DNA from: Phycisphaerales bacterium
Lineage (GTDB): Bacteria > Planctomycetota > Phycisphaerae > Tepidisphaerales > Tepidisphaeraceae
Direction: 5' to 3'
Assembly: GCA_003153655.1 (NCBI GenBank)
Contig: PMAK01000284.1
Span: 1 to 14,176 of the forward strand
DNA length: 14,176 nt
Shown one piece after another: positions 1-13,051 of the stretch. A model generated the notes under the pieces. The model was not told where the DNA came from. It made no database searches and saw only the letters and a list, made by a program, of their open reading frames with translations. A program made the translations under genes and the position numbers. Position 1 is the first letter of the stretch. The number at the start of each line of letters is the position of its first letter.

Positions 1-188
1 AGCGACTTCGGATAGGTCGATTGCCGTGGCCAGAGCAATTCATGCACTGCGCCGCCTTGAAACGCGCCGTTCGGTGCAATTTCATCGAACGCCTCCAAGC
101 CCGTGCGAAAGCTGCGGCAACCGACATGCGACCCTTGCTTTTCAGCAAGGGCGCGGCGCAGCTCATCCTTATCAGTCGTTATTTGCAC
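1..188 (-). CDS. imuA: ImuA-like RecA-fold SOS mutagenesis protein, N-terminal part only
   Basis: The first 62 codons of a minus-strand gene that runs off the left edge. I place the start at the GTG at 188, because GGAAGAGG lies just upstream and no in-frame ATG is nearby. The N-terminal helix is charged (DKDELRRALAEKQG) and is followed by FRTGLEAFDEIAPNGAFQGG and AVHELLW. This matches the entry of ImuA-type RecA-like proteins, whose pattern is a short helical lead, T/S-G-hydrophobic-D, then G-G-hydrophobic-HE. In known systems ImuA works with ImuB and DnaE2 in error-prone translesion synthesis and is SOS-induced. A (G/T)AAC-N7-(G/T)AAC operator at 207-221 fits that regulation. The Walker region lies outside the window, so another RecA-like protein (SulA/RecA type) is possible. 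Confidence 0.65.
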   Translation of the reverse strand, partial: MQITTDKDELRRALAEKQGSHVGCRSFRTGLEAFDEIAPNGAFQGGAVHELLWPRQSTYPKS

Positions 189-206: not shown

Positions 207-221
207 GTTCGCTATATGTTA
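207..221 (-). promoter_or_regulatory. SOS-box-like operator upstream of imuA (box 1)
   Basis: Read on the minus strand, this is TAAC ATATAGC GAAC, a 4-base direct repeat spaced by seven, ending 18 bases before the imuA GTG. It differs by one base from the GAAC-N7-GAAC direct repeat bound by alphaproteobacterial LexA. It also shares its spacer (ATATA-C) with box 3 at 3175-3189. That a LexA-family repressor binds it is inference. Confidence 0.6.
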
Positions 222-326
222 GGGTAACGATCTGAGCCGGGTTTCGTCAATCCCGCGCCCTTCGCGCCCTTGGGGTTTGTTCAATGACGATGCGATGATG
301 GATTTAGCGATAGAAAGGGTTAGCGC

Positions 327-387
327 AAAAAAAGATCGGCGGTTGAAGAAGGAGGGGGGGAACCTTCTTCGGGGAATACCGCCGATC
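327..387 (-). terminator. Rho-independent terminator of the DUF2840/S26 operon
   Basis: Two paired blocks, 334-343 with 378-387 (GATCGGCGGT / ACCGCCGATC) and 345-352 with 363-370 (GAAGAAGG / CCTTCTTC), make an 18-bp stem with a small asymmetric internal loop and a 10-base G-rich apex. On the minus strand the stem is followed directly by seven T (333 to 327). Orientation and position show it ends transcription arriving from the S26 gene and insulates imuA. Confidence 0.9.
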
Positions 388-489
388 CGCAGTTGATTAT
401 GCTTCGATCCTGATTGGATGCAAATCAATTGTTCCGTTACGCCAGCGGCGGGGAAATGTCCCGATTGGATGCGCGCATGGGTACGGCAG

Positions 490-1044
490 TCACCACGTTA
501 TCAAGGCGCGGCGGACTGTCTCAATGTGTTGCCTGCGAATGGGGCCATAGCAACGGCTATCGAAGCTGTTGGGAATCCGGTCAGAGAAAACGAAGAATTC
601 ATCGGCACCGAGCACGCGGGACTGCCGCCAGACGGGAAGCGGACGGCCGCTGCTGTCCGTTGGTGGCGGCATCGGCGCCAGCTTATGACCGTTAATGACG
701 AGCCATTCACCGGTCGTGTCAACGCGATCTCCTGGACCGGCGGCGATGGGCTTGAGGATGTACCAGTTCTCGCCATTGTTCCCGGTGCGTCCCTGAACGT
801 AGGGCCTCGCGAAATCCGGTATCCGAAAATCAATGATTCGCCCAACGGTGGGCTCGTTCGCGGACCGAATATACAAACCGGGCGCCACGCTCGGCGATGT
901 ATTGATGACGACGATGCGATGGCCGACAAGCGTTGGAAGGATCGCCCACACCCCCATCACGCCGAGCGACAGCCGCAATAACCGGCGGGACCGCGCGCGA
1001 TGAGCGGATGTGGTGGGCGCGTTGGAACCGATCAACTTGGGCAT
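490..1044 (-). CDS. TraF-like conjugal transfer S26 family signal peptidase
   Basis: 184-residue inner-membrane serine peptidase of family S26, TraF subtype. Residues about 23-42 form a hydrophobic anchor after an arginine-rich cytoplasmic start. The nucleophile block is NTSPSVAPGLY with Ser52 as the likely catalytic serine. The general-base block is YILKPIAAGPGD with Lys98. The C-terminal box is SFDSRCYGPI (about 160-169), the usual SFDSRYFGPI of this group. In RP4-type systems TraF matures the pilin TrbC; in conjugative elements this subtype commonly follows a DUF2840 gene, as here. The ATG at 1044 lies 4 bases after the DUF2840 stop, with AGGTAA upstream, so the two are probably translationally coupled. 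The stop is TGA. A strong terminator follows at 387-327. No other pilus or type IV secretion genes are in the window, so the substrate is unknown. Confidence 0.92.
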   Translation of the reverse strand: MPKLIGSNAPTTSAHRARSRRLLRLSLGVMGVWAILPTLVGHRIVVINTSPSVAPGLYIRSANEPTVGRIIDFRIPDFARPYVQGRTGNNGENWYILKPIAAGPGDRVDTTGEWLVINGHKLAPMPPPTDSSGRPLPVWRQSRVLGADEFFVFSDRIPNSFDSRCYGPIRRQHIETVRRALITW

Positions 1045-1048
1045 GGAA

Positions 1049-1501
1049 TTACCTAGTCAAGCTGTGGGTCCGAACGTGCGGATGGAGGAGAATGCGATGA
1101 ACAACTTTCGTCCAGTATTTCGGCGGCAATTTCGCCGGGTCTTGCCCGCGGGCTTTCACGTCTTCGATTAGGTCGAGCAGCAAATCAACCGTCCCGTTCT
1201 GTCCTGCCGGCCCGTGCTGATCGACGATCGCATGAACGGCCACGGCCGAGTGTATGCCTGGCAAGTCATGCCCACTTTGATCGCCTCCCAGCGCTTGGAC
1301 AATCGCGACGGCACGGTGTTGACGATCTTCCGGAAACCGCCGCCACCAAACTACTCCAAAGATTTGACCGGGATGGAAGTGGTATACGCTTTGGCCCTCA
1401 TGCTCTTCGTGTTGGTTGGCCGGCGCGCCAAAGCAGAGGCGCTCAAGGCTGGAGTGCGGAACGTATCGGGAAACGAAACGGGTTAAGTGGCTGGAGCGCA
1501 A
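1049..1501 (-). CDS. DUF2840-like conjugative element protein
   Basis: About 150 residues of unknown function. From memory of DUF2840 proteins, the resemblance is a central block with a proline-glycine turn and aromatic strand (HPGQIFGVVWWRRF), then an AIVQAL segment, and a C-terminal helix-turn region (VDLLLDLIEDVKARGQDPAK, then a PPKYW block) near residues 105-135. DUF2840 genes typically sit directly upstream of the S26/TraF peptidase in integrative conjugative elements, which is the arrangement here. I chose the TTG at 1501 because AGAGG lies 6 bases upstream; a TTG at 1525 is also in frame but lacks a ribosome site. The protein is rich in His and Gln, and an open frame exists on the other strand, so this call rests on family resemblance, operon position and the start site. 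A promoter lies at 1540-1568. Confidence 0.7.
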   Translation of the reverse strand: MRSSHLTRFVSRYVPHSSLERLCFGAPANQHEEHEGQSVYHFHPGQIFGVVWWRRFPEDRQHRAVAIVQALGGDQSGHDLPGIHSAVAVHAIVDQHGPAGQNGTVDLLLDLIEDVKARGQDPAKLPPKYWTKVVHRILLHPHVRTHSLTR

Positions 1502-1536
1502 GCGACACCTCTTTTTTTGTTGCAATTCGACGGGGA

Positions 1537-1551
1537 GAACATTAACCTAAC
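1537..1551 (+). promoter_or_regulatory. Direct-repeat operator in the divergent region (box 2)
   Basis: GAAC ATTAACC TAAC: the same four-base direct repeat with seven-base spacing as boxes 1 and 3. It overlaps the -10 of the minus-strand promoter and lies about 90 bases before the plus-strand regulator gene at 1640, so it could couple both transcripts to one repressor. Confidence 0.6.
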
Positions 1552-1568
1552 AATTCTGTCAGAGTCAA
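1540..1568 (-). promoter_or_regulatory. Promoter for the DUF2840/S26 operon
   Basis: On the minus strand, TTGACT (1568-1563) is followed after 17 bases by TTAATG (1545-1540), or after 18 by TAATGT. Transcription would begin about 30 bases before the TTG at 1501. The operator at 1537-1551 covers the -10, so a bound repressor would block this promoter. Confidence 0.5.
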
Positions 1569-1609
1569 GAGCAAAATGTCTATTTTGAATCCATTTTGAA
1601 TTTACTCTG
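1560..1609. promoter_or_regulatory. Repeat-rich operator region upstream of the XRE-S24 regulator
   Basis: Three nested repeats sit here. CAAAAT (1572-1577) and ATTTTG (1582-1587) form a perfect inverted repeat with a 4-base centre. ATTTTGAAT occurs twice, at 1582-1590 and 1593-1601, offset by exactly 11 bp, one helical turn. CAGAGT (1560-1565) and ACTCTG (1604-1609) form an outer inverted repeat. This is a likely binding platform for the adjacent CI-like regulator (autoregulation is inferred). I see no convincing plus-strand -35/-10 pair. Confidence 0.5.
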
Positions 1610-1639
1610 AGTTGTTTTTCGATTGACGGACTCCAAGCA

Positions 1640-2380
1640 ATGATGTTTACTGGTGATATGGAACGTGCATCAAGGACGGTGAAGGTTTCCGGCGAGCGGC
1701 TGGCGGCACTGTGGCGCGAGTCGTCGATGTCACAGGAAACCTTCGCGCACGAAATCGGCATGAAGCGATCTGGCTTCCTCCGGCTCATGCAGCCGGGGGA
1801 ACATGGAATGTTCACGGACAACTTTCGCCGCTTGGCTGAGGCGGTCCGGACCACGCCCGACGAATTACGCACGCGAATTGGTCCAGCGGGAAAAAACGAG
1901 TTTGAACTTGGTGTCGCTGGCGGCGCATCGCCCCGTGTTTCGCGCGCCGGCAATCGAATGGCGGGAGTGTCGGGAATCGCCCAGCCGCTTCGCGAAGTCA
2001 CGCGATTTCACGGAATCAGTGCCGGCGTGCGCAATGAGCGTTTAGCAGTCGAGCAAGGGACCGTGAAGGTTCCGCAAGACTTTGGCGACTTTGCTGTGCG
2101 CGTCGATGGCGAGTCGATGACACCTGAGTACCCGGACAACGCCGTTGTTTTGTTCGAGGCCGTTGAGGGACAGCAGTTCACGTTCGGGAAGGACTACCTC
2201 ATCTGGTTCACCAATGAAGAATGCTATTTCAGTCGCGTCACGGAAAGCGACGACGACCGCGACGTACTGATGTTGCAAAAAATCAATCCGGATCGGGAAC
2301 GGTATCCCGACCGCACGGTTCATCGCCGTGAGATTGCGCGGGTTGCGCTCTGCGTGGGGGTGCTGATCCGCAAGAAGTGA
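1640..2380 (+). CDS. XRE-HTH / S24 LexA-CI-like repressor, catalytic lysine not evident
   Basis: 246 residues. The N-terminal part (about 15-80) is a helix-turn-helix of XRE type: SGERLAALWRESSMSQETFA then HEIGMKRSGFLRLM. A Gly/Ala/Ser linker follows, with a candidate Ala128-Gly129 cleavage bond (ISAGVRN). The C-terminal S24 domain has FAVRVDGESMTPEYPDNAVV with the expected nucleophile Ser159. In LexA and phage CI-type repressors the catalytic lysine lies in a VKRL-like strand; here the equivalent strand reads CYFSRV, with Ser198 where Lys is expected. Family function is SOS-triggered self-cleavage and derepression; this protein may be cleavage-deficient or use another trigger. Starts at ATG 1640 or 1643 have only a weak ribosome site; ATG 1658 is possible. 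A second regulator gene follows 23 bases downstream. Confidence 0.88.
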   Translation: MMFTGDMERASRTVKVSGERLAALWRESSMSQETFAHEIGMKRSGFLRLMQPGEHGMFTDNFRRLAEAVRTTPDELRTRIGPAGKNEFELGVAGGASPRVSRAGNRMAGVSGIAQPLREVTRFHGISAGVRNERLAVEQGTVKVPQDFGDFAVRVDGESMTPEYPDNAVVLFEAVEGQQFTFGKDYLIWFTNEECYFSRVTESDDDRDVLMLQKINPDRERYPDRTVHRREIARVALCVGVLIRKK

Positions 2381-2403
2381 TTTGTACCAAAAAGGAAAAG
2401 ACG

Positions 2404-3108
2404 ATGTCGAAGCTTACACAATGGCTCGACCATCGCATGGAGGTGGTGGGACTTAATCGGTGGAAGGATCTGTCAGAATACTCCGGCGTGCCGCATCAAA
2501 CGATCCGGGACATGAATACCTGCGGCTCGCTGGACGTGCTGAACCGCTCGGATCGTCGCTTGCTTGCCGCCACGTTGCGCGTTTCGCTGCGAAGGCTGGA
2601 GCAACTCGACAACGGGAAAATCGACTGGATAGAGGACAAGCATGTCTACGATGTTGGTGCGCAGGGCCGACCGGCGCCTTGGCAGGAAAACGATCCGGCA
2701 TACTGGGTTCCGAAAGAAGTGACGCCTGAGGATCGCGGCACGCCCGTGATCGGAAGCATCCGTGCCAACGGCACGGCGGAGCCGGACGAAGCCTGGCAGG
2801 AGGAATGGGGTCGTCACATCCCGCAACGATTCGGCAAGGGCAAAGACATCTACGGCCTGGAACTCGAAGGCGTTGGCCAATCCATTGTGTTTCGCAACAT
2901 TCCCCCTTGGGAATTTCGCGATGGAACGGCGGCGGTCTACTGCTGGAACGGGTGGGAGGCACGGGGGCTATTCGGTCGGGTTGAATTAGCGCCACTTAAA
3001 ACAATCGTTGTAACAGCGGATGGGAAGCGGCATGAGTTGGACCCGGTGAACGTCGTCCGCATTGGAAAGATCATCGGACGATGGCCTGTTGAAGCCGCGC
3101 GCCTATAG
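2404..3108 (+). CDS. HTH regulator with degenerate S24-like C-terminal domain
   Basis: 234 residues from the ATG at 2404, which has AAGGAAAAG just upstream; an in-frame GTG at 2377 overlapping the previous stop is less likely. Residues about 18-70 look like an XRE-type DNA-binding helix bundle (RWKDLSEYSGVPHQTIRDM, then a LLAATLRVSLRRLEQL helix). Residues about 112-230 follow the outline of an S24 domain: TPVIGSIRANG, a strand LELEGVGQSI aligned with the usual V-x-GDSM motif, RDGTAAVYCW, and GLFGRVEL where a KR pair is normally found. Ser160 is present, but the flanking motif is degraded and no lysine occupies the catalytic position, so self-cleavage is not expected. It is probably the partner or antagonist of the upstream XRE-S24 regulator in one operon. 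The C-terminal assignment is tentative. Confidence 0.72.
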   Translation: MSKLTQWLDHRMEVVGLNRWKDLSEYSGVPHQTIRDMNTCGSLDVLNRSDRRLLAATLRVSLRRLEQLDNGKIDWIEDKHVYDVGAQGRPAPWQENDPAYWVPKEVTPEDRGTPVIGSIRANGTAEPDEAWQEEWGRHIPQRFGKGKDIYGLELEGVGQSIVFRNIPPWEFRDGTAAVYCWNGWEARGLFGRVELAPLKTIVVTADGKRHELDPVNVVRIGKIIGRWPVEAARL

Positions 3109-3151
3109 GGCAAGTCCCATCGTTTGCGACGTTTTGATATAATTCATACCA

Positions 3152-3180
3152 TTGACTTTGTTACCTCTGGATGCTAACAT
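3152..3180 (+). promoter_or_regulatory. Sigma-70-type promoter for the small excisionase-like gene
   Basis: TTGACT (3152-3157), a 17-base spacer, and TAACAT (3175-3180). Expected start near 3187, about 40 bases before the ATG at 3229. The -10 is part of the operator at 3175-3189. Confidence 0.65.
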
Positions 3181-3189
3181 ATACCTAAC
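3175..3189 (+). promoter_or_regulatory. Direct-repeat operator over the -10 element (box 3)
   Basis: TAAC ATATACC TAAC, an exact four-base direct repeat with seven-base spacing. Ten bases, CTAACATATA, are shared with box 1 upstream of imuA. The box includes the -10 hexamer and the predicted start site, a classical repressor position. Confidence 0.6.
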
Positions 3190-3207
3190 TGCTGCAAGTC
3201 GCAGCAG
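3189..3207 (+). other. Small hairpin at the 5' end of the excisionase-like transcript
   Basis: CTGCTGC (3189-3195) pairs perfectly with GCAGCAG (3201-3207) around the loop AAGTC. It would begin within a few bases of the predicted transcription start. A 5' end-protecting stem or a further protein site are both possible; no T run follows, so it is not a terminator. Confidence 0.4.
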
Positions 3208-3228: not shown

Positions 3229-3438
3229 ATGACAACGGTTGAACTGCACGCTCAGACACTTTCGCCGTATTTGTCGCCGAGGGAACTTCAGGAGCGGTGG
3301 CGCTGCTCGCGTTCAAGCGTCGACCGAATTGCCCGCCGAGCGGGCCTGACTCGGCTTTGCCTTGGCGAAGGGCGCAACGGGATCGTGCGGTACAATCGGA
3401 AGGAGGTGGAGGAATTCGAGAACAAACGGCAGGCATGA
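3229..3438 (+). CDS. Small excisionase/AlpA-like helix-turn-helix protein
   Basis: 69 residues from ATG 3229, with GAGTG 5 bases upstream; a GTG at 3211 in the same frame would add six residues. The core has the MerR/excisionase winged-helix layout: YLSPRELQERWRCSRSSVDR as the helix-turn-helix, then the wing LGEGRNGIVRYNRKEVEEF, where a strand ends in R-Y/F-x-x-x-E-V. Such proteins direct site-specific recombination or transcription in integrated elements, though many are generic DNA binders. No integrase lies in the window. It has its own promoter overlapped by box 3 and faces the defence operon tail to tail. Confidence 0.72.
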   Translation: MTTVELHAQTLSPYLSPRELQERWRCSRSSVDRIARRAGLTRLCLGEGRNGIVRYNRKEVEEFENKRQA

Positions 3439-3628: not shown

Positions 3629-6600
3629 CTAACTGAGTCGGAAGTTCTCATCGACGTTCTTTAAGACTGCATTGATGTCCTTAATGACCGAATCTGCTGG
3701 GGATATTTTGCCATCACCCACCTCCAATCGGACGTGAAACTTGATGACGAGCTTCGCTTTGGCCCTGATTTCCAGCAGCTTCGGAATGAGATCTCCAATA
3801 TCCTGAATCTGCGCGGGGTCGAAATCGCCGCTGGCGACCCGGATATTCGGCAGAGGAACTTTGGGTTGCGGACTGCCCGTCCCGCCAATTCCTCCGATGC
3901 CCAATGCGGCTACGGGAACCGTTATGCGCACGGCTTGGGCACCGGAGAAGTCGCACGGCCATGTGCCGGAATCCTCAGTTAGGGCGATAAACCTTGCTTG
4001 CAGAGCACCGGCAATGACATCACGCACGGTCTTCCACGGCAGCGTGTTTCCGGCGTTTTGCGAGAGCGCGGCGGCGATCGCCAGCGCGCTGGTCGTGCCA
4101 TTTTGCCAAGCCGTTGGTAAGTTTTCCGGAAGAATGGCCGCGGCTGATATGATCGCGGGCGGCGTTCGCAATTTCGCTGTAGTTGTTAGGACGCCCGGAG
4201 GAATCGGTTCGTCGAACAAGCTTGCCGGGCCGGACAAAAGCCATACTTTGCCGGTCGCGACGGCATCGTTAATAGCTCGGTTCACGATTTCCTGCGAAGC
4301 CTTGGGAATCTGGACAGGCTCTTGATAAGAGCCTTTGTCCACCTGTACGACGGTTCTACCACCGAAATAATCTTGCACGACTTGTGAAGTAATTTCATCA
4401 CTGGTCCAAAGTGACGGCAGCACTTTTGGCACCAGCAACTCCGCGGGAATCTCACCCAACTCGGCTGCTTCGGGGAGTACCAGTTCCAACGCCGGATCGC
4501 CCAAAGCGGCGTCGTCCGGTCGGGAACGCCACCATGTGCGGAACGTCCGGTCCGGTCGCGTGACCCGAAGAACAAACGTACCTTGTAGGCAGCCGTCAAC
4601 TAGCGTCTGGACGATGGCCTGTGCTTTGAGCATCTTGGGCAGGTGTGGTAACTGAGCAAAGGCTCCGGCCAAGTCTTTCACGCGCCGGGCGCTTTCGGCG
4701 CCTTTCCAAAGGTTGTATGGACCCTCGGGCAACAATGCTTCGGCTGTGACGGCTGTGTCCTGCACGCGCGAGCGAGAATCGTTCTTGATCGTTTCGAAGT
4801 GCGGTTCGTCGGTAACGGTAATCTTGAACGCCTGGTCCTCGTCCTTGTCGGAAACCGTAACGACGATGCAATACGCCTGGCGGATCGCCTCGGGAACACG
4901 ACCCTTGGCTTTGTCGATGTTCATGGCAAGCGTCTGTAGCCGTGCGACATCGACCGAGACCTTCTGCTTCTTTTCCTGTTCGTTCTTTGCGGTGAGATCA
5001 TCGCGCACCCTGTCCCACGCCAAATATTCGCGGATGCGCGCTTGGGCAACTTCCAGCCCGTCCCGGGAAGCCGCCAGCAGCATGACGGCATTGCGGAAGA
5101 CGCGGGGCTTCTCGGGTCCTGTCGTTTCGTCCAAGTACCTTTTGGCTTCCGCACTCGGCTTTCCAGAGTCCGATGCCGCGCTCGGGGCCAGGACGGCGTA
5201 ATGGAACAATCCGTCGTCTTCGATGTCTTTGGGCTTGGTGGGTAGCGAGTGGACGCGCACCCCCAGCGCAGAAGCGCCGCTGGTAAGCGTCTTCACCTTG
5301 CCGATTTCGTCCAAGAGTCGTCCCTTAACAACGTCGTCAGATATCAGCGCGGCCGCTGCAGATTGCATTTGGTTCAGATTTGGACGGTTCCCCATCCGCC
5401 ACTCGCCGGGCAACTGGCCGTCCTTTTCCGATACATTGGAATCGTCCAGCCAATAGCTGCTTCGCGCCCAGCGAGCCAATCCTTTTTCTAATTCGATCTT
5501 GTCGGCGCGACACGGGCCGACAAGCAGCAGCAAGTCGCGGGTTTTGGCGCTATGGCCCACTGGCTGCGAATGAAGGAACGTTGCCATGACGGCCTGTTCG
5601 ATCTCTCGCTGCTTGAGGCCCACAGAATCCGCCTGCACCTGCCGTCCGCAACCAAGTTCTGACTCCAATATGCCGGTCCATCGGGTTCCCTGGCCTTCAG
5701 TGATGATCGTGTCCGCCACTGCCACCAGTTCGCGCGCTGCTTCTGAAAGGGATTCCTGCGATGGGGCATTCAGGAACACCGCCGGGCCGACTAGCGGCGA
5801 GCCATCCCATTTCTCCGCTTCCCGCAATGCCAACGCGAACGTGCGCAGCACTCCGCGCGTCTTTTGAAACCGTTCGATTCCTGCGGACCATTTTGAATAA
5901 AAGACTTCAGTAAGTTCTGGATGGAAAGGAAAACTCTTCAAGTAGCGGTCTTCGGCGGCTGCGCCCTGTTTGGCGGTTTGATCGTCGATTGCCTGGATAC
6001 CCTTGAGCGCTGCGATCACCTGCTGGCCCCAATTCTGGCGATCATGTACCGATTTGGGATCGAATAAGCGCCGACGAAGCACCTCTGCCACGTCGTCTTT
6101 CTCGACGGGATTCACCGCCGCCTCGCGCTGGCGCTGGAAGATGTCGTACAACTCCGACACGATCCGCTTGCCTAGCGCATCGGCCTGATCCTTTGGTTCG
6201 CTGGAGAGCAGCGACGCCACGATGCAGCAGCGGTCCACTTTCGCCGCCGACTGCGTAAGGTATTGGAAGAATGATGTGAGGATGTCGAGCCATCCTGGCT
6301 CCGAGCGCACTTTCACCTTGGCATAAAGCAATACTTCGTCGATGAGGATCAACGTTCCCAAACCCTCTTTAAGTGGAAGTGACAAAAGCTCGGTCAGCGT
6401 GTTTTCGGCCGGCGGTGTTGCGCGCTCGTCCGCTTTACCTTCGGCATTGAGCAACTTCAATCCGGCGTCACCGGCGACCTGATAAGCCAGTACACTCCAA
6501 GGCTGCTTGAGTCGTCGTACTTTTCCATCGGGTCCGCGCACGTCCATGCCGGTTTCCACGTCGAGTTTGTCAAAACACAGGGCCGCGACGCGGGCGTTGG

Positions 6601-6979
6601 GCAACGCCTGTCCGATGGTCTCGGTGAACTCGCGCACGGCCGGAAGGTCCGGAAGCTTCGCCGGGTCATGCACGAGGTGGCGCATGGTAATCAGCGTGTG
6701 CGTCTTGCCACCGCCGTAGGTGAGCTCAAGTTGGCGAACCGCTTTGTCATTTTTTCCAGCCAGCCGCAAGACGACCTCACGCACTAAATTTCGCAAGTTA
6801 TGCGTGGGGTAGGTGAGGGCAAAAAAGCTATCGGGGTTCTCGTAGATCGGGCGCTTGCCGTTCTGCATCATGACTTCGTACAAGTCTGCCGCGAACAGAT
6901 GCAGAGGTAGATCGCCGGATCGCAAATCGTCCCGTAGCCGCACGACTTCGTGCCACGCTTTCCAAGGTAATTTCGCCAT
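3629..6979 (-). CDS. DUF499 (COG1483) AAA+/P-loop ATPase of a methylation-linked defence module
   Basis: 1116 residues, cytoplasmic, last gene of the defence operon. The start MAKLPWKAWHEVVRLRDDLR and the following block are typical of DUF499 proteins. Walker A is LTYGGGKTHTLI with Lys at about 92, in the GGGKTH form usual for this family, and Walker B is TLILIDEVLLYA (Asp214, Glu215). The middle and C-terminal parts (FAQLPHLPKMLKAQAI, and VIKFHVRLEVGDGK near the end) are the long non-ATPase part of these proteins. DUF499 ATPases are recurrent neighbours of DUF1156 methylases and are assumed to power target recognition or remodelling, but their exact role is not established. AAGGA lies 9 bases before the ATG, 11 bases after the upstream stop. 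The stop is TAG. The length looks complete. Confidence 0.93.
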   Translation of the reverse strand: MAKLPWKAWHEVVRLRDDLRSGDLPLHLFAADLYEVMMQNGKRPIYENPDSFFALTYPTHNLRNLVREVVLRLAGKNDKAVRQLELTYGGGKTHTLITMRHLVHDPAKLPDLPAVREFTETIGQALPNARVAALCFDKLDVETGMDVRGPDGKVRRLKQPWSVLAYQVAGDAGLKLLNAEGKADERATPPAENTLTELLSLPLKEGLGTLILIDEVLLYAKVKVRSEPGWLDILTSFFQYLTQSAAKVDRCCIVASLLSSEPKDQADALGKRIVSELYDIFQRQREAAVNPVEKDDVAEVLRRRLFDPKSVHDRQNWGQQVIAALKGIQAIDDQTAKQGAAAEDRYLKSFPFHPELTEVFYSKWSAGIERFQKTRGVLRTFALALREAEKWDGSPLVGPAVFLNAPSQESLSEAARELVAVADTIITEGQGTRWTGILESELGCGRQVQADSVGLKQREIEQAVMATFLHSQPVGHSAKTRDLLLLVGPCRADKIELEKGLARWARSSYWLDDSNVSEKDGQLPGEWRMGNRPNLNQMQSAAAALISDDVVKGRLLDEIGKVKTLTSGASALGVRVHSLPTKPKDIEDDGLFHYAVLAPSAASDSGKPSAEAKRYLDETTGPEKPRVFRNAVMLLAASRDGLEVAQARIREYLAWDRVRDDLTAKNEQEKKQKVSVDVARLQTLAMNIDKAKGRVPEAIRQAYCIVVTVSDKDEDQAFKITVTDEPHFETIKNDSRSRVQDTAVTAEALLPEGPYNLWKGAESARRVKDLAGAFAQLPHLPKMLKAQAIVQTLVDGCLQGTFVLRVTRPDRTFRTWWRSRPDDAALGDPALELVLPEAAELGEIPAELLVPKVLPSLWTSDEITSQVVQDYFGGRTVVQVDKGSYQEPVQIPKASQEIVNRAINDAVATGKVWLLSGPASLFDEPIPPGVLTTTAKLRTPPAIISAAAILPENLPTAWQNGTTSALAIAAALSQNAGNTLPWKTVRDVIAGALQARFIALTEDSGTWPCDFSGAQAVRITVPVAALGIGGIGGTGSPQPKVPLPNIRVASGDFDPAQIQDIGDLIPKLLEIRAKAKLVIKFHVRLEVGDGKISPADSVIKDINAVLKNVDENFRLS

Positions 6980-8114: not shown

Positions 8115-11100
8115 CTATGGTTCCTCCCCGAGGGCAAGTTTCATTTGGTCGGCGTTTGCCTTTGTTCCTTTCGCACCGATGTGGTTGCTCAGGCTTTCCA
8201 GCAATGACCGTTCATCGCTACCGCGCTCGGACAACTCAATTAGTGATTGCACGAGGCGCTTGAACAATTCGTGCCGTCGCATGCCGTGTTCGTCGAGGTA
8301 CTCGTCAACCTTGTGAACATCACCAGCCTTCCAAAGATGCAAGAGGCGATGAACCCGGTCGATAAGTGGCACCGATCGCCCATTCGGCGCTTCGTAGCCC
8401 ATCGATCGGTCCTTTCGTTGAGTCCACGCCTTGAGTCGCACCTTGCCACCCGTCGACTCAGGCTCCTCCTCGCCATCGTCGGGAATAGAAAGATCATCGT
8501 CGTCGCTCGAATCATCTGCACCGGTTTTCGCGAGGATATCCCAAGTCTGAACCAATTCCGAATCCGAAAGATTGCATGAAACTGCATACAAGATGCAGGT
8601 GCCAACCGGTGCCTCATTCAAACCAAAATCATGCCTATGCAGCAGATAATAGGCGGTCGGCTCATCTAAGCGATCACTGGCCGAGAACTGGGCAGCGCCG
8701 TCCTGTTCACCGCTAAGCACCTTCCCGACCACGTAGTCGACGACCAACCGTCGAACATGGTTTAGGAATTCTGCAACCGTCATTACTTGACCTGGCTGAT
8801 CCGCTTTTTTCACTGCCGGGTGCTTGCTGTACGCCTCCAGCGCCGGTCCCGTCGCCGCCCATATGAAATCGGGCCCGCGGATGCCCGCGTCCCAGTAATT
8901 CTGCAACTTCACAGCAATGTTGGAACGCATTTCTTCGAGAACGGCAGTATCCCAGCCAACTCGCGCTGCGACCTCACGCTTCTTACATACGAGCCAGACC
9001 GATGAGGCCAGGGCAGCCGAACTTTGGGCACGCATACGACTACTCTGCTCAGTTTGAATTGGCCAAGTCCCATCGACTGTAAAGCCAGCACGGATAATCG
9101 CAGACACAAGCGTCTCCCAGGCGGCTGGCTGCTTGTTGGCGAAAACGATTACCAGTCGACCTTCGGGGGTTAACGACTCTGCACATTGAACAAACACTCT
9201 GGCCATTCCGTCCTCGTACACCTGCTTGCTCTTAGCGGCGTTATTTCCGTGACGGCTGGAATCGTCTATCAACTCGCCATCATTGGCTTCGTGATCCCAT
9301 TTGGGAGACAGTGCATTTCTAAACGGAATGTCGAGCACCGAGTCTGTGTGGGCCACAATTCGCCGGAGCCACACATAGAAAAAATCCATCATGTCCGAAT
9401 AGGGAATGGCGTCGTAATACGGGGGATCTGTCAGCACCACATCATATTGTCCTATCAAGGGATTAGTCGAAGATTGATGCACGACGTGCGGTGAGGGCGC
9501 ATCAATGTTCCAGCGCACAAACGTGTCAAGTGCAGTTGCAATGCGATCAAGACACATAATGTATCCGCCTGCACCGGGCCACAGAAGGTTGCCTTCCGCG
9601 TAATCCCATGTAATTGGGAGTGCAAAGCGGACAAATGAATGATTGATCGTTGGAACGTCAATCTTCCACTGCACGCCACAGTTGGCAAAGTCTAGTGTCC
9701 TATCGAGTCCACATGCTAGGTACGCGGCGATTGCGTCGATCCAGTCTGATGTATAGCCAAGATTAGCCATCTCAACGCGAGCATGGCGTGTGGAGGCAAC
9801 GAGTCTTCCAAGCGACTTTAGTTGGCGTGACGTGAACAAATCGCGCCAGAGCATTAGGCCGTAGCCTTGCACACTGAATGCGCGGCCAGCTCCTGATCCG
9901 CCGCCGCTCGGGGTGGGCTCATTCGGCACGCCGTATGGGACGTCTTCAAACGCTTTCTCCACGTCATCATCGTCAATCGCTGCTACCGACAGCTCATGTG
10001 CCGTAGGCATGCGGTAACCTTTACCATCAGCCGTATCCAAGACAACGGCCGTCATTACACTTCCCAGCTTTCCCGCCTTGCCTTCGACCCGAATGTCCTC
10101 CATTGTCATGATGGTCGGGCAACACGGACACTTCGCTCCCGCGCGGCTCATCGTGCCACCCGCAATGCGCTTGTCGTGTTCACGTTTCTGAGCGGCATTG
10201 CCACCCTGGGATGGTACATCCATCTGGATGCCGAAGACGACACCGCTCTTATCCTCATTTGGCGCCATCGTCAGAATCACCCGCCTGCGATCGGTCTTGC
10301 ACAACCATCGCGTTTTTAGGAGCGGGAGTTGGGCGCGACAATGCTTGCACTGCACAGTGCGCGCCCAGAGATACGCGACGGTGGGCTTCGCAATCCATCG
10401 AGGATTCGCTTGTACAGCAAGGTAATCCTTCGACAATTCGGCATTCATCGAGGCAATGTCAGGTGTTCCGTTTCGCGTCAAAGGCACAAGCGTCATGGGC
10501 CGATGCTCATAGGCGATTTGCTCCTTTTTCAACGGCTCGAAATCGGCATAGGTCGGATACAGCGGAGCCAGCTCCTTGCGCACGCGGCTCAGAACCCACT
10601 GGCCCCACGCGCGGACGTGCCACGCGAGGTCTGCATCAGGTCCATGTATCGTGTCGGCTGATGCGAAAAGCGTTGCTTTTTGCTTTTTAGTTGCTTTGCC
10701 TCGCCCTTCGGCATCAGGATTGGCTTTGTAGAAAGCGTCCATGAAACTTTCGTTGCCGGTGATGAAATCCGGCAGAACCCGTTTCTTCCCTGCCAGCTTT
10801 TGCGGATATTCCAGTGTGCATTTAAGAATGAACCACGCCACGGGATTGATATCCACGGCGGTCGTTTCGCATCCGAGACGCATCGCCTCCAGGGGAATCG
10901 CGCCACCGCCCGAGAACGGATCTATCACCCTCGGCGCTCGCCCGCCGTAACTCTTGCGGATTTCCTTCTTTAACCATTCGAGCGTGGCAGCATTCTCCGT
11001 TTCATTTCCCCAACGAAGAATTCCTCCCTCAGTCTCTTCCTTGATGCGCTCCACAATTTGCCCGTTGGGCATCTTCTTGCGCTCGATCCGTTTGACGACT

Positions 11101-11324
11101 TTGCCGGCGATTTTTTCGCAAAGTTCGCGCCGCTTTTCCGGCGTGCCAGGATCGGGCAACAGCGTCGCAATGAGTGCAGCTCGACTAGCCGCAAGAGGTC
11201 GCCGTGCCGGCCAAAGGTGGACAGTCGAAATGTGCCCATGACGTACGGTCTTCTCATGCACAGAATCCAGCGATGTCTGCTTCAGCGGGAACGCGTGTTC
11301 GATTAGTCTTGGGAAATCAGACAT
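8115..11324 (-). CDS. DUF1156 (COG1743) adenine-specific DNA methyltransferase with zinc-knuckle cysteines
   Basis: 1069 residues. The DUF1156 lead is plain: PRLIEHAFPLKQTSLDSVHE, then TVRHGHISTVHLWPARRPLA (about residues 5-46). SAM-binding motif I is VIDPFSGGGAIPLEAMRLG (about 133-151), with an acidic end of strand 2 at AVDIN. CKHC (326-329) and a CPCC pair (about 399-402) are the Zn-ribbon insertion described for COG1743. Catalytic motif IV is LTDPPYYDAIPYSD (about 631-644), the DPPY form of N6-adenine (or N4-cytosine) methylases. An acidic linker near residue 960 (SSDDDDLSIPDDGEEE) precedes a helical C-terminal domain. It is probably the modification subunit that marks host DNA. Its start overlaps the PIN gene stop by 8 bases; AAGGTG lies upstream. 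The target sequence cannot be read from here. Confidence 0.95.
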   Translation of the reverse strand: MSDFPRLIEHAFPLKQTSLDSVHEKTVRHGHISTVHLWPARRPLAASRAALIATLLPDPGTPEKRRELCEKIAGKVVKRIERKKMPNGQIVERIKEETEGGILRWGNETENAATLEWLKKEIRKSYGGRAPRVIDPFSGGGAIPLEAMRLGCETTAVDINPVAWFILKCTLEYPQKLAGKKRVLPDFITGNESFMDAFYKANPDAEGRGKATKKQKATLFASADTIHGPDADLAWHVRAWGQWVLSRVRKELAPLYPTYADFEPLKKEQIAYEHRPMTLVPLTRNGTPDIASMNAELSKDYLAVQANPRWIAKPTVAYLWARTVQCKHCRAQLPLLKTRWLCKTDRRRVILTMAPNEDKSGVVFGIQMDVPSQGGNAAQKREHDKRIAGGTMSRAGAKCPCCPTIMTMEDIRVEGKAGKLGSVMTAVVLDTADGKGYRMPTAHELSVAAIDDDDVEKAFEDVPYGVPNEPTPSGGGSGAGRAFSVQGYGLMLWRDLFTSRQLKSLGRLVASTRHARVEMANLGYTSDWIDAIAAYLACGLDRTLDFANCGVQWKIDVPTINHSFVRFALPITWDYAEGNLLWPGAGGYIMCLDRIATALDTFVRWNIDAPSPHVVHQSSTNPLIGQYDVVLTDPPYYDAIPYSDMMDFFYVWLRRIVAHTDSVLDIPFRNALSPKWDHEANDGELIDDSSRHGNNAAKSKQVYEDGMARVFVQCAESLTPEGRLVIVFANKQPAAWETLVSAIIRAGFTVDGTWPIQTEQSSRMRAQSSAALASSVWLVCKKREVAARVGWDTAVLEEMRSNIAVKLQNYWDAGIRGPDFIWAATGPALEAYSKHPAVKKADQPGQVMTVAEFLNHVRRLVVDYVVGKVLSGEQDGAAQFSASDRLDEPTAYYLLHRHDFGLNEAPVGTCILYAVSCNLSDSELVQTWDILAKTGADDSSDDDDLSIPDDGEEEPESTGGKVRLKAWTQRKDRSMGYEAPNGRSVPLIDRVHRLLHLWKAGDVHKVDEYLDEHGMRRHELFKRLVQSLIELSERGSDERSLLESLSNHIGAKGTKANADQMKLALGEEP

Positions 11325-11913
11325 TCGTTGTCACCTTCTGCGCAGCCATCAATCGGCACCGCAATGCTTCGAGATAAATCTGTTCAAAATACGTCGCGAG
11401 AGGCCTCGCCAATTGCTTATGCTCGGCGATTACCGAATCCTTTTCAGAGTCGGTGAGGTGATTGTTGAAATAAAGCCAGCCAAACAAATGAGGAGTGGTT
11501 TGTGCGCCGGGATTCGAGAGAACGTCGGCGGCAAGCTTCCGCGCTTTTTGGTCGTCGGTGAGAAAGGCCTGCCGCGTTTTAAGAGCGAATGCGATTGACG
11601 ATAACTCACCCTTCCCCAAGCGTTTTCGCTTCTCCAGCAACTCAACAGTTTGCAGATCATCAATGTCGAGGGAGAAGACGGAGAATGCTTGGGCCTTCTG
11701 GGCCGCTTGGAGTCTGGATCGCAACTCAACATCCGCATCCGTAACATTCTTTCGCGGCTTTAGCAGGCATTCATACGCAACTACACGCGTGCAGACGAAA
11801 ACGACGCCCGCATCCAGCGCCACACGAAGGAGACGCCGCGAGGAAAGAATGTTCCAGACCGCGCACGTGTCCGCAATGTTGTGTGGATGAAAACGTGATA
11901 CATCAATCGCCAT
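11317..11913 (-). CDS. PIN-like domain ribonuclease/toxin candidate
   Basis: 198 residues from ATG 11913, which has GGGAGGG 9 bases upstream; an in-frame ATG at 11949 would deepen the overlap with the upstream gene and is less likely. The acidic pattern of PIN nucleases is visible: D15 in IADTCAVWN, E48 in VVAYECLL, E103 in LGKGELSSIAFAL and D120/D121 in AFLTDDQKARKLA. PIN proteins are metal-dependent RNases, often toxins. The gene overlaps the stop of the HTH-ImmA gene by 11 bases, so the two are translationally coupled. HTH-ImmA proteins are recurrent neighbours of PIN-like proteins, consistent with a toxin-antitoxin or regulated-effector pair carried inside the defence operon. Target RNA is unknown. 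Confidence 0.75.
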   Translation of the reverse strand: MAIDVSRFHPHNIADTCAVWNILSSRRLLRVALDAGVVFVCTRVVAYECLLKPRKNVTDADVELRSRLQAAQKAQAFSVFSLDIDDLQTVELLEKRKRLGKGELSSIAFALKTRQAFLTDDQKARKLAADVLSNPGAQTTPHLFGWLYFNNHLTDSEKDSVIAEHKQLARPLATYFEQIYLEALRCRLMAAQKVTTNV

Positions 11914-13051
11914 GGGAAAGCGCCCTCCCATATAGCGATGCCAGCCCACTGAGCTCTGCCTCCGCTACCAAAAGCATTTCTGCCACGCGGGCCGCAGTTA
12001 CGATTCCACGGTCATACGCATCAAAACATAGCGCCACGTATGAGTCCGACAGGCCACGTTGGAGAAGTTCTTCTTTGCGCTGCCGACTTCGCACCCCGAG
12101 CGTTTCCGGAAGTTCGGGGTCCGCTTTGCGCGCCTTTGGAACCTTAAGCTTCTTGAGGGACGTGACTTCCGCATCGGAAATCAGATTCGCGTCGCGAAGC
12201 GCATACGCCATCGTCTCTGCGTTTACCATTAGACGAGCGGCATAGTCGAGGAACTTTTGCTCAGTCCAACTCTTCGCGTCAGGGATCGCCTGAATCACCT
12301 CCGGGGGTAGCAGAAACCGTGACGCAAATGTATTGGCGCGGATTTCGCTGAGGTCGCCCTTCGCCCAGTCATTGAAAGAGACAACGAAGTCCTGATCCGT
12401 ATCAAGAATGGCGTGACCTGCCTCATGTGCCGCAGTGAATCGTTGGCGAAACACGTCCTCGCTGTAGTTGACCAACACACAAGCACCCGCAATGGGGTGG
12501 CGAATAAACAGCCCAGAAATCGTGCTGGAACCTAATTGACGGCGGAATACATGCACGCCGATATCGCGGAACACTTGAAATACGTTTGGCGGAATCTCGT
12601 TCGATGCCCAACCGATATAGCGGCGCAGCTCGCTTGCTGCCTCTTCACCATGGCGTTTGAAAAACGTCCCATGCTTCGTGAAGGAGAAATGCCGCCGTGG
12701 GCCTTGGGACAACTCAGAAAGAAGAAACTCCTGACACTCGCAAAGGAACAGAAATTCCTGGATGGCCCATCGATCTTGCTGGGATAGCTCGGTTCCGTGC
12801 TTGCGAAAAAGAGATTCTGTTTGTTCAAAGGACGCCAGTTTTTCATTGGAAATGAAGAACTTAAAATCGCATTTGAAATAATCGGCCAAGATGAGAACTT
12901 CATCTCCAGTTGGATCGGTGGTGCTGCCGAGCATTGCCGCAAGGCGCGCAGGTTCGATTCCGGTGCTCGCGCAAACGACATCGGCATTGACCTGAAATTG
13001 GGTCATATATCGCTGAAGCTTGCCCGAGAACATTTGGCGATCTAGTGCCAT
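11903..13051 (-). CDS. XRE-HTH/ImmA-IrrE (COG2856) metallopeptidase
   Basis: 382 residues. Residues about 8-65 form an XRE-like helix-turn-helix (YMTQFQVNADVVCASTG, ARLAAMLGSTTDPTGDEV). The M78 (ImmA/IrrE) peptidase domain carries RFTAAHEAGHAIL with the zinc-binding HEAGH at 209-213, followed by EIRANTFASRFLLPP, which supplies the third ligand (Glu236) and the family's A-N-x-FA signature. Known relatives cleave phage-type repressors or DNA-damage regulators, or act as antitoxin-like regulators. GGAG lies upstream of ATG 13051, 6 bases after the helicase stop. Likely targets, by inference, are its own HTH-controlled promoter, the PIN partner, or the S24-like regulators in this window. The stop is TGA. 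Confidence 0.93.
   Translation of the reverse strand: MALDRQMFSGKLQRYMTQFQVNADVVCASTGIEPARLAAMLGSTTDPTGDEVLILADYFKCDFKFFISNEKLASFEQTESLFRKHGTELSQQDRWAIQEFLFLCECQEFLLSELSQGPRRHFSFTKHGTFFKRHGEEAASELRRYIGWASNEIPPNVFQVFRDIGVHVFRRQLGSSTISGLFIRHPIAGACVLVNYSEDVFRQRFTAAHEAGHAILDTDQDFVVSFNDWAKGDLSEIRANTFASRFLLPPEVIQAIPDAKSWTEQKFLDYAARLMVNAETMAYALRDANLISDAEVTSLKKLKVPKARKADPELPETLGVRSRQRKEELLQRGLSDSYVALCFDAYDRGIVTAARVAEMLLVAEAELSGLASLYGRALSHGD

Follow-up and report, generated by a model that had tools for sequence, protein, structure and literature searches.

Putative LexA-type operators on an integrative element and at a neighbouring imuA-like gene in a planctomycete of the class Phycisphaerae

The DNA analysed here, referred to as the window, corresponds to positions 1-14,176 of contig C280 of a Phycisphaerales bacterium, whose genome assembly consists of 304 contigs and is 88% complete. 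It begins with the 5' part of an imuA-like gene, followed by genes of an integrative element with Hma-type defence cargo, to which a set of short intergenic boxes belongs (Table 1). An earlier note on this DNA had grouped three 15-bp sites outside genes as copies of one LexA-type operator common to imuA, genes linked to conjugation and an excisionase-like (xis-like) gene. The sites are indeed present at 207-221 on the minus strand (site 1) and at 1537-1551 (site 2) and 3175-3189 (site 3) on the plus strand, with 0 mismatches to KAACATWWASCKAAC, and all three are intergenic, the flanking starts being the imuA GTG at 188-186(-), position 1525(-) at the furthest for the DUF2840 open reading frame (ORF), and 3229(+) for the xis-like gene.

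Table 1. Predicted genes and operator-like features of the window and of the adjoining part of contig C280.
Feature	Position	Strand	Remarks
imuA-like gene, 5' part	1-188	-	GTG start 188-186, runs off contig; reads as ImuA-like N-terminus
imuA operator (predicted), tandem GATC-N7-TAAC-N7-GAAC	207-232	-	26 bp; site 1 of the earlier note (207-221) plus overlapping box 218-232
TraF-like S26 signal peptidase	490-1044	-	Pfam PF10502 6.6e-16; NCBIfam TraF models 1e-21, 3.6e-21, under curated cut-offs
DUF2840 protein	1049-1525	-	Pfam PF11000 6.6e-11; start codon not settled
LexA-type box over inferred -10 of DUF2840-traF promoter	1537-1551	+	TTGACT 1568-1563, -10 1545-1539, both minus strand
Direct and inverted repeats adjoining S24 gene	1559-1610	+	candidate operator of the element's own repressor, role inferred
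Helix-turn-helix (HTH) and S24 repressor-like protein	1640-2380	+	Pfam PF00717 4.7e-07
Second regulator	2404-3108	+	no Pfam family; weak LexA/CI-like fold match
LexA-type box at xis-like gene	3175-3189	+	inferred -10 TAACAT 3175-3180, 17 bases past TTGACT 3152-3157
HTH_17 excisionase-like protein	3229-3438	+	Pfam PF12728 1.1e-04, 22.9 bits, under 27-bit curated cut-off
HmaC-like ATPase (cargo)	3629-6979	-	PADLOC HmaC 2.9e-69
HmaB-like DNA methylase (cargo)	8115-11324	-	PADLOC HmaB 3.4e-115
HmaA	C280:16331-19900 (L009:6331-9900)		beyond window
Tyrosine integrase	C280:20100-21344		beyond window

The inferred -10 hexamers are contained within the boxes. Judged from its sequence, site 1 fits a 26-bp tandem of three half-sites better than a single 15-mer, and in this respect the shared operator proposed earlier has to be amended; the predicted LexA-type character of the sites, on the other hand, stands up in view of the box at the host lexA gene, the promoters of lexA and imuA in relatives and the corresponding positions of boxes in related elements. 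The proposed preference for T at the first half-site base applies to imuA-type sites, whereas G or A is commoner at lexA. With up to two mismatches, KAACATWWASCKAAC matches the window four times, compared with a mean of 0.20 in shuffled sequences, none of 200 of which reached four, a count that is circular because the pattern was derived from the same three sites.

The host is a planctomycete (Phycisphaerae) and not an alphaproteobacterium, which rules out an alphaproteobacterial origin, so that the resemblance to the GAAC-N7-GAAC box of alphaproteobacteria holds as a likeness only. Among named genomes, the closest LexA proteins are those of Phycisphaerae and other Planctomycetota, including a Humisphaera sp. 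Contamination by a foreign contig is unlikely, given a GC content of 0.56 as opposed to 0.53-0.58 in the other contigs of this genome that were read, and a box matching that of the host. The promoter of the host lexA gene carries this box, GTACATTACCCTAAC, at C12:102-116, over the -10 of TTGACT-N17-TAATGT; read on the strand of the gene, the upstream box is GTTAGGGTAATGTAC. The boxes could conceivably be bound by a different regulator of the host, or by a second LexA-like protein that has diverged, as extra proteins with a LexA-type DNA-binding domain are present in the relatives G003 and G015. However, one such domain was found in the host genome, at the 88% completeness of its assembly, and the box lies on its own promoter, which makes this explanation distinctly improbable.

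Of the 21 lexA promoters of the family, the host's own included, 16 contain a box that differs from GAACNNNNNCCKAAC at no more than one position or fits GAAC-N7-KAAC exactly, and in 8 of these 16 a second box follows on the opposite strand, 3-4 bp on; in four of the 16 (L108, L114, L118, L119) the main box and the start are about 190 bp or more apart. The strict consensus GAACATWWACCTAAC was found with up to three mismatches in 13 of the 21 promoters, as opposed to 9 of 420 shuffles. These counts left out L128-L130, where the LexA N-terminal model scored about 20-25 bits compared with about 94-104 for the 21 retained, and the family genomes G001, G002, G013 and G022 gave no LexA match. Among 80 named lexA loci, several of which are the same records as relatives used in training, the matrix score reached at least 12 in 11, all of them within the 14 most similar LexA proteins (3 of 800 shuffles). 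As far as these sequences go, the lexA box is established as a feature of this Phycisphaerae family and not of the class as a whole.

A matrix built from 25 sites of relatives placed window sites 2 and 3 at ranks 1 and 2 of 28,324 positions, with E values of 0.003 and 0.16 that are partly circular, as the sites were gathered with GAACNNNNNCCKAAC, a pattern chosen after the window boxes were known. With the same matrix, site 1 took rank 7 and its overlapping partner rank 5. Blind motif discovery by expectation maximisation, carried out on the lexA upstream regions of 20 family relatives with the host's own genome and the window excluded, returned a GTTAGGGTAGTGTTC-like motif as the best, and such motifs made up the best three optima shown. 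Over the window, the blind motif ranked 1538-1552 first, 217-231(-) second and 3176-3190 fourth, which correspond to the DUF2840-traF, imuA and xis promoters, respectively, and put the 15-mer originally described as site 1 at rank 9.

The gene imuA is the commonest conserved SOS target. From 25 imuB loci (L230-L254), seven in which no imuA ORF was found and two with only 92 bases to score were subtracted, and 10 of the resulting 16 imuA promoters of relatives had a match at p<=0.05. The same tandem operator precedes imuA in several relatives, such as GATCAATACCCTAACATAATGCGAAC in G021, and the imuA promoter of G055, which belongs to another family, contains TAACATATACCTAAC, identical to window site 3. 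For related elements, two regions were scored by their best hit to the lexA-trained matrix, and p<=0.05 was reached by 8 of 10 regions preceding the repressor (adjoining DUF2840 if there is one) and by 4 of 7 xis regions, in a test for which the regions were set by hand, the p floor is 1/201 and the elements are not independent of one another. No DUF2840 was found beside the repressors of G001 and G022, the xis region of G114b is wide, its xis gene not having been located, and for G083 the best score, 8.6, is that of the whole 11-kb locus rather than of the DUF2840 promoter. By eye, the promoter shapes of the related elements agree, with TTGAC and a box at or adjoining the -10. On the strength of the box at the host lexA gene, further boxes near the starts of priA and rmuC, the imuA promoters of relatives and the ranks of the blind motif, the three sites are most likely operators of the host LexA, as predicted from sequence comparison.

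Several observations weigh against this interpretation. Six of the 16 imuA promoters of relatives miss the threshold, as do two of the ten repressor/DUF2840 regions and three of the seven xis regions of related elements; lexA promoters outside the family are without such a box (66 of the 80 named loci, below it in similarity); and recA was not found in the host assembly, in which the single match fell under the family cut-off. The genome scan suggested in the earlier note also gave a divided picture. The exact pattern occurs nine times in the 4.65-Mb genome and its reversed control 0 times, one of the nine, on C119, being a near-copy of site 1 (88% identity, 471 bp), but looser patterns behave differently: KAAC-N6-CKAAC gave 81 matches versus 189 for the control, GAACATWWACCTAAC with up to three mismatches 139 versus 320, and KWACNTNNNCCTAAC, hardly enriched, 18 versus 12. 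Some well-matching sites fall within ORFs (C174; C146:1672, score 21.5), and among the 27 genome loci with up to two mismatches that were read, the evident repair genes outside elements were lexA, priA and rmuC only, the boxes of the latter two lying near gene starts whose codons are not settled. As the loosened patterns show no clear enrichment, pattern counts alone cannot settle the case, and weight was put on the promoters of relatives and on placement. These counts, together with the -10 hexamers inside the boxes, would also fit a likeness produced by chance and shared promoter letters; yet the blind motif ranks the three regions 1, 2 and 4, and related elements share the placement, so that we regard such an origin as very improbable.

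Other boxes encountered in the genome are recorded here for their own sake. The one at C146:1672-1686 (L054, L068) is situated within a DNA methylase ORF and could be due to chance or represent an internal promoter. A box 5' of a dinB-like gene (L067:1521-1535, score 19.3) was set aside as a LexA target, as it is too far from the likely start. Outside elements, boxes in L006, L024 and L045 (C246, C37, C191) precede short ORFs with the common peptide MGHS-A-WG, hinting at a dispersed repeat that adjoins LexA-type boxes.

Element repressors that sense damage themselves are familiar from SetR of SXT and CI of lambda, and the boxes might accordingly be operators of the element's own S24 repressor or of its neighbour, the genes of which lie between two of the boxes. 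The C-terminal model of the S24 repressor corresponds to the LexA/lambda CI domain (predicted local distance difference test, pLDDT, about 71-86 there and 63.5 overall; best match E 8.4e-06), the second regulator gave a weak LexA/CI-like fold match (E 3.3e-04, pLDDT 75.9), and the S24 repressor keeps Ser159 and the Ser-Ala-Gly motif. However, serine 198 replaces the catalytic lysine of LexA, in 24 of 24 aligned sequences (the window's and 23 chosen from 120 listed), so that of the Ser-Lys dyad and Ala-Gly site required for self-cleavage the serine and Ala-Gly are kept and the lysine is lost. The S24 proteins of the elements labelled f5 retain lysine at that position. By analogy with the known LexA mechanism, the lysine-less repressor is probably not self-cleaved, which suggests that damage sensing is left to the host LexA. 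In addition, the separate repeats at 1559-1610 adjoin the S24 gene and could, from their sequence, be the element's own operator, and lexA and imuA are preceded by the same box in genomes for which the search revealed no relative of the second regulator, such relatives occurring in 3 of 397 class genomes (own included). Control of the boxes by the element's own regulators is therefore unlikely.

Control by the host LexA leads to a scheme that we consider probable as a whole. The LexA box of the family would be a direct repeat, KAAC-N7-KAAC, of about the form GAACANTACCCTAAC, placed over the -10; the integrative element would bear it on the xis-like and DUF2840-traF promoters, and the imuA-imuB-dnaE2 cassette would bear a tandem box of the imuA type. 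Without damage, LexA would repress all three promoters, and upon damage its RecA-driven self-cleavage would release them jointly, giving rise to excision, a transfer-linked step and mutagenic repair. The S24 repressor would probably not sense damage for want of its catalytic lysine and would serve as a second lock at another operator. A further-reaching view, which we hold tentatively and put at somewhat less than an even chance, is that a family of Phycisphaerae integrative elements, which also carry anti-phage defence genes, has handed damage sensing to the host LexA, one host signal freeing excision together with a transfer step and with an error-prone polymerase cassette in or beside the element, and that planctomycete LexA came to its direct repeat independently of the alphaproteobacteria. 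Under the proposed scheme, a single signal would govern genes of mutagenic repair together with those of mobility and defence, and the scheme suggests that an element can couple its excision and spread to the damage signal of the host without a cleavable repressor of its own. It also offers a concrete and testable, if predicted, SOS box in a class of bacteria that is large but has received little study.

The gene at 1-188(-) is one that we take to be imuA from features of its sequence, and the name also rests on imuB and dnaE2 next door, which are encoded on contig C18. The last 22 bases of C18 are the first 22 of both C280 and C119, and either copy may therefore join it. At this end, C280 and C119 are 88% identical over 471 bp and then diverge; by their sequences, the imuA start exists in two versions in the genome, and upstream of either there is a TraF gene. 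By the assembly, the imuA-imuB-dnaE2 cassette lies in or beside the element. In L010 (C119):772-6235, the second imuA start is followed by genes of a type IIG restriction enzyme, an AAA ATPase and a DUF4276 protein, and then by a TraF-like stretch. The region downstream of dnaE2 (L066 (C18):4386-5705) contains genes for a reverse transcriptase and for a small HTH protein, which are perhaps retron-like cargo.

Within the element, integrase, excision factor, DUF2840 and traF co-occur, the matches of the excision factor and TraF lying under curated cut-offs. TrbI matches are located on the host contigs C172 and C126, and no trb gene was seen on C280. In f5 elements, genes for an S24 protein, DUF2840 and a DUF1580 excisionase-like protein stand beside those for an S26 peptidase and an integrase, with TrbI present in one case. 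A paralogous module is located on contig C146, where GAACATTACCCTAAC separates DUF2840 from the S24 region, and the second regulator has a third copy on C124. DUF2840 occurs in 7 of the 397 class genomes, in 2 of them over the family cut-off. For the two regulators, the homologues returned by protein searches numbered 119 and 147, most of them metagenomic; for the second regulator, there was no relative in plasmid records and one short partial match in viral contigs, and a profile search against solved structures gave nothing useful. A relative of the S24 repressor with 62% identity (P0195) is labelled Bryobacteraceae, and the reach of the element family may, by this sequence, extend to Acidobacteriota. 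Further defence-like genes are found among the Hma set, with an RmrA-like match at 11903-13051 and a PDC-S19 match at L009:5216-6334.

According to PMC3108266, LexA of planctomycetes fails to recognise the E. coli motif, and full-text literature searches, judged by title or abstract, yielded no planctomycete LexA motif. The alphaproteobacterial LexA box, GTTC-N7-GTTC or GAAC-N7-GAAC on the other strand (PMC8565304), is likewise a direct repeat of four-base half-sites seven apart. The present boxes differ in that they belong to a planctomycete, usually have TAAC as one half-site, with GAAC at both half-sites in 0 of the 3 window sites, and have a constrained spacer (A.TACC); 8 of the 16 boxed lexA promoters also have a second, inverted box. 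The gene order recalls integrative and conjugative elements of the Tn4371/Mesorhizobium type, in which DUF2840 lies between rdfS and traF (PMC8627217), as it does here between the excision-factor gene and traF; trb genes, too, are present in the genome of the host as well as next to related elements. The present element differs in the two S24-like regulators between xis and DUF2840, the apparent SOS control and the contig on which no trb gene was seen. Control of mobile elements by the host LexA is itself already known from Gifsy and GIL01. The Gifsy prophages of Salmonella, which combine an uncleaved repressor with a LexA-controlled antirepressor (PMC3121763), resemble our element in that a probably uncleavable repressor is tied into host LexA, whereas the boxes here are on xis, DUF2840-traF and imuA, and no antirepressor gene was identified. 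Phage GIL01 is repressed by the host LexA (PMC4551915) and thus shares with this element host LexA boxes, here predicted, on its promoters; it is, however, a phage with the helper gp7, whereas the present case concerns an integrative element with two S24-like regulators.

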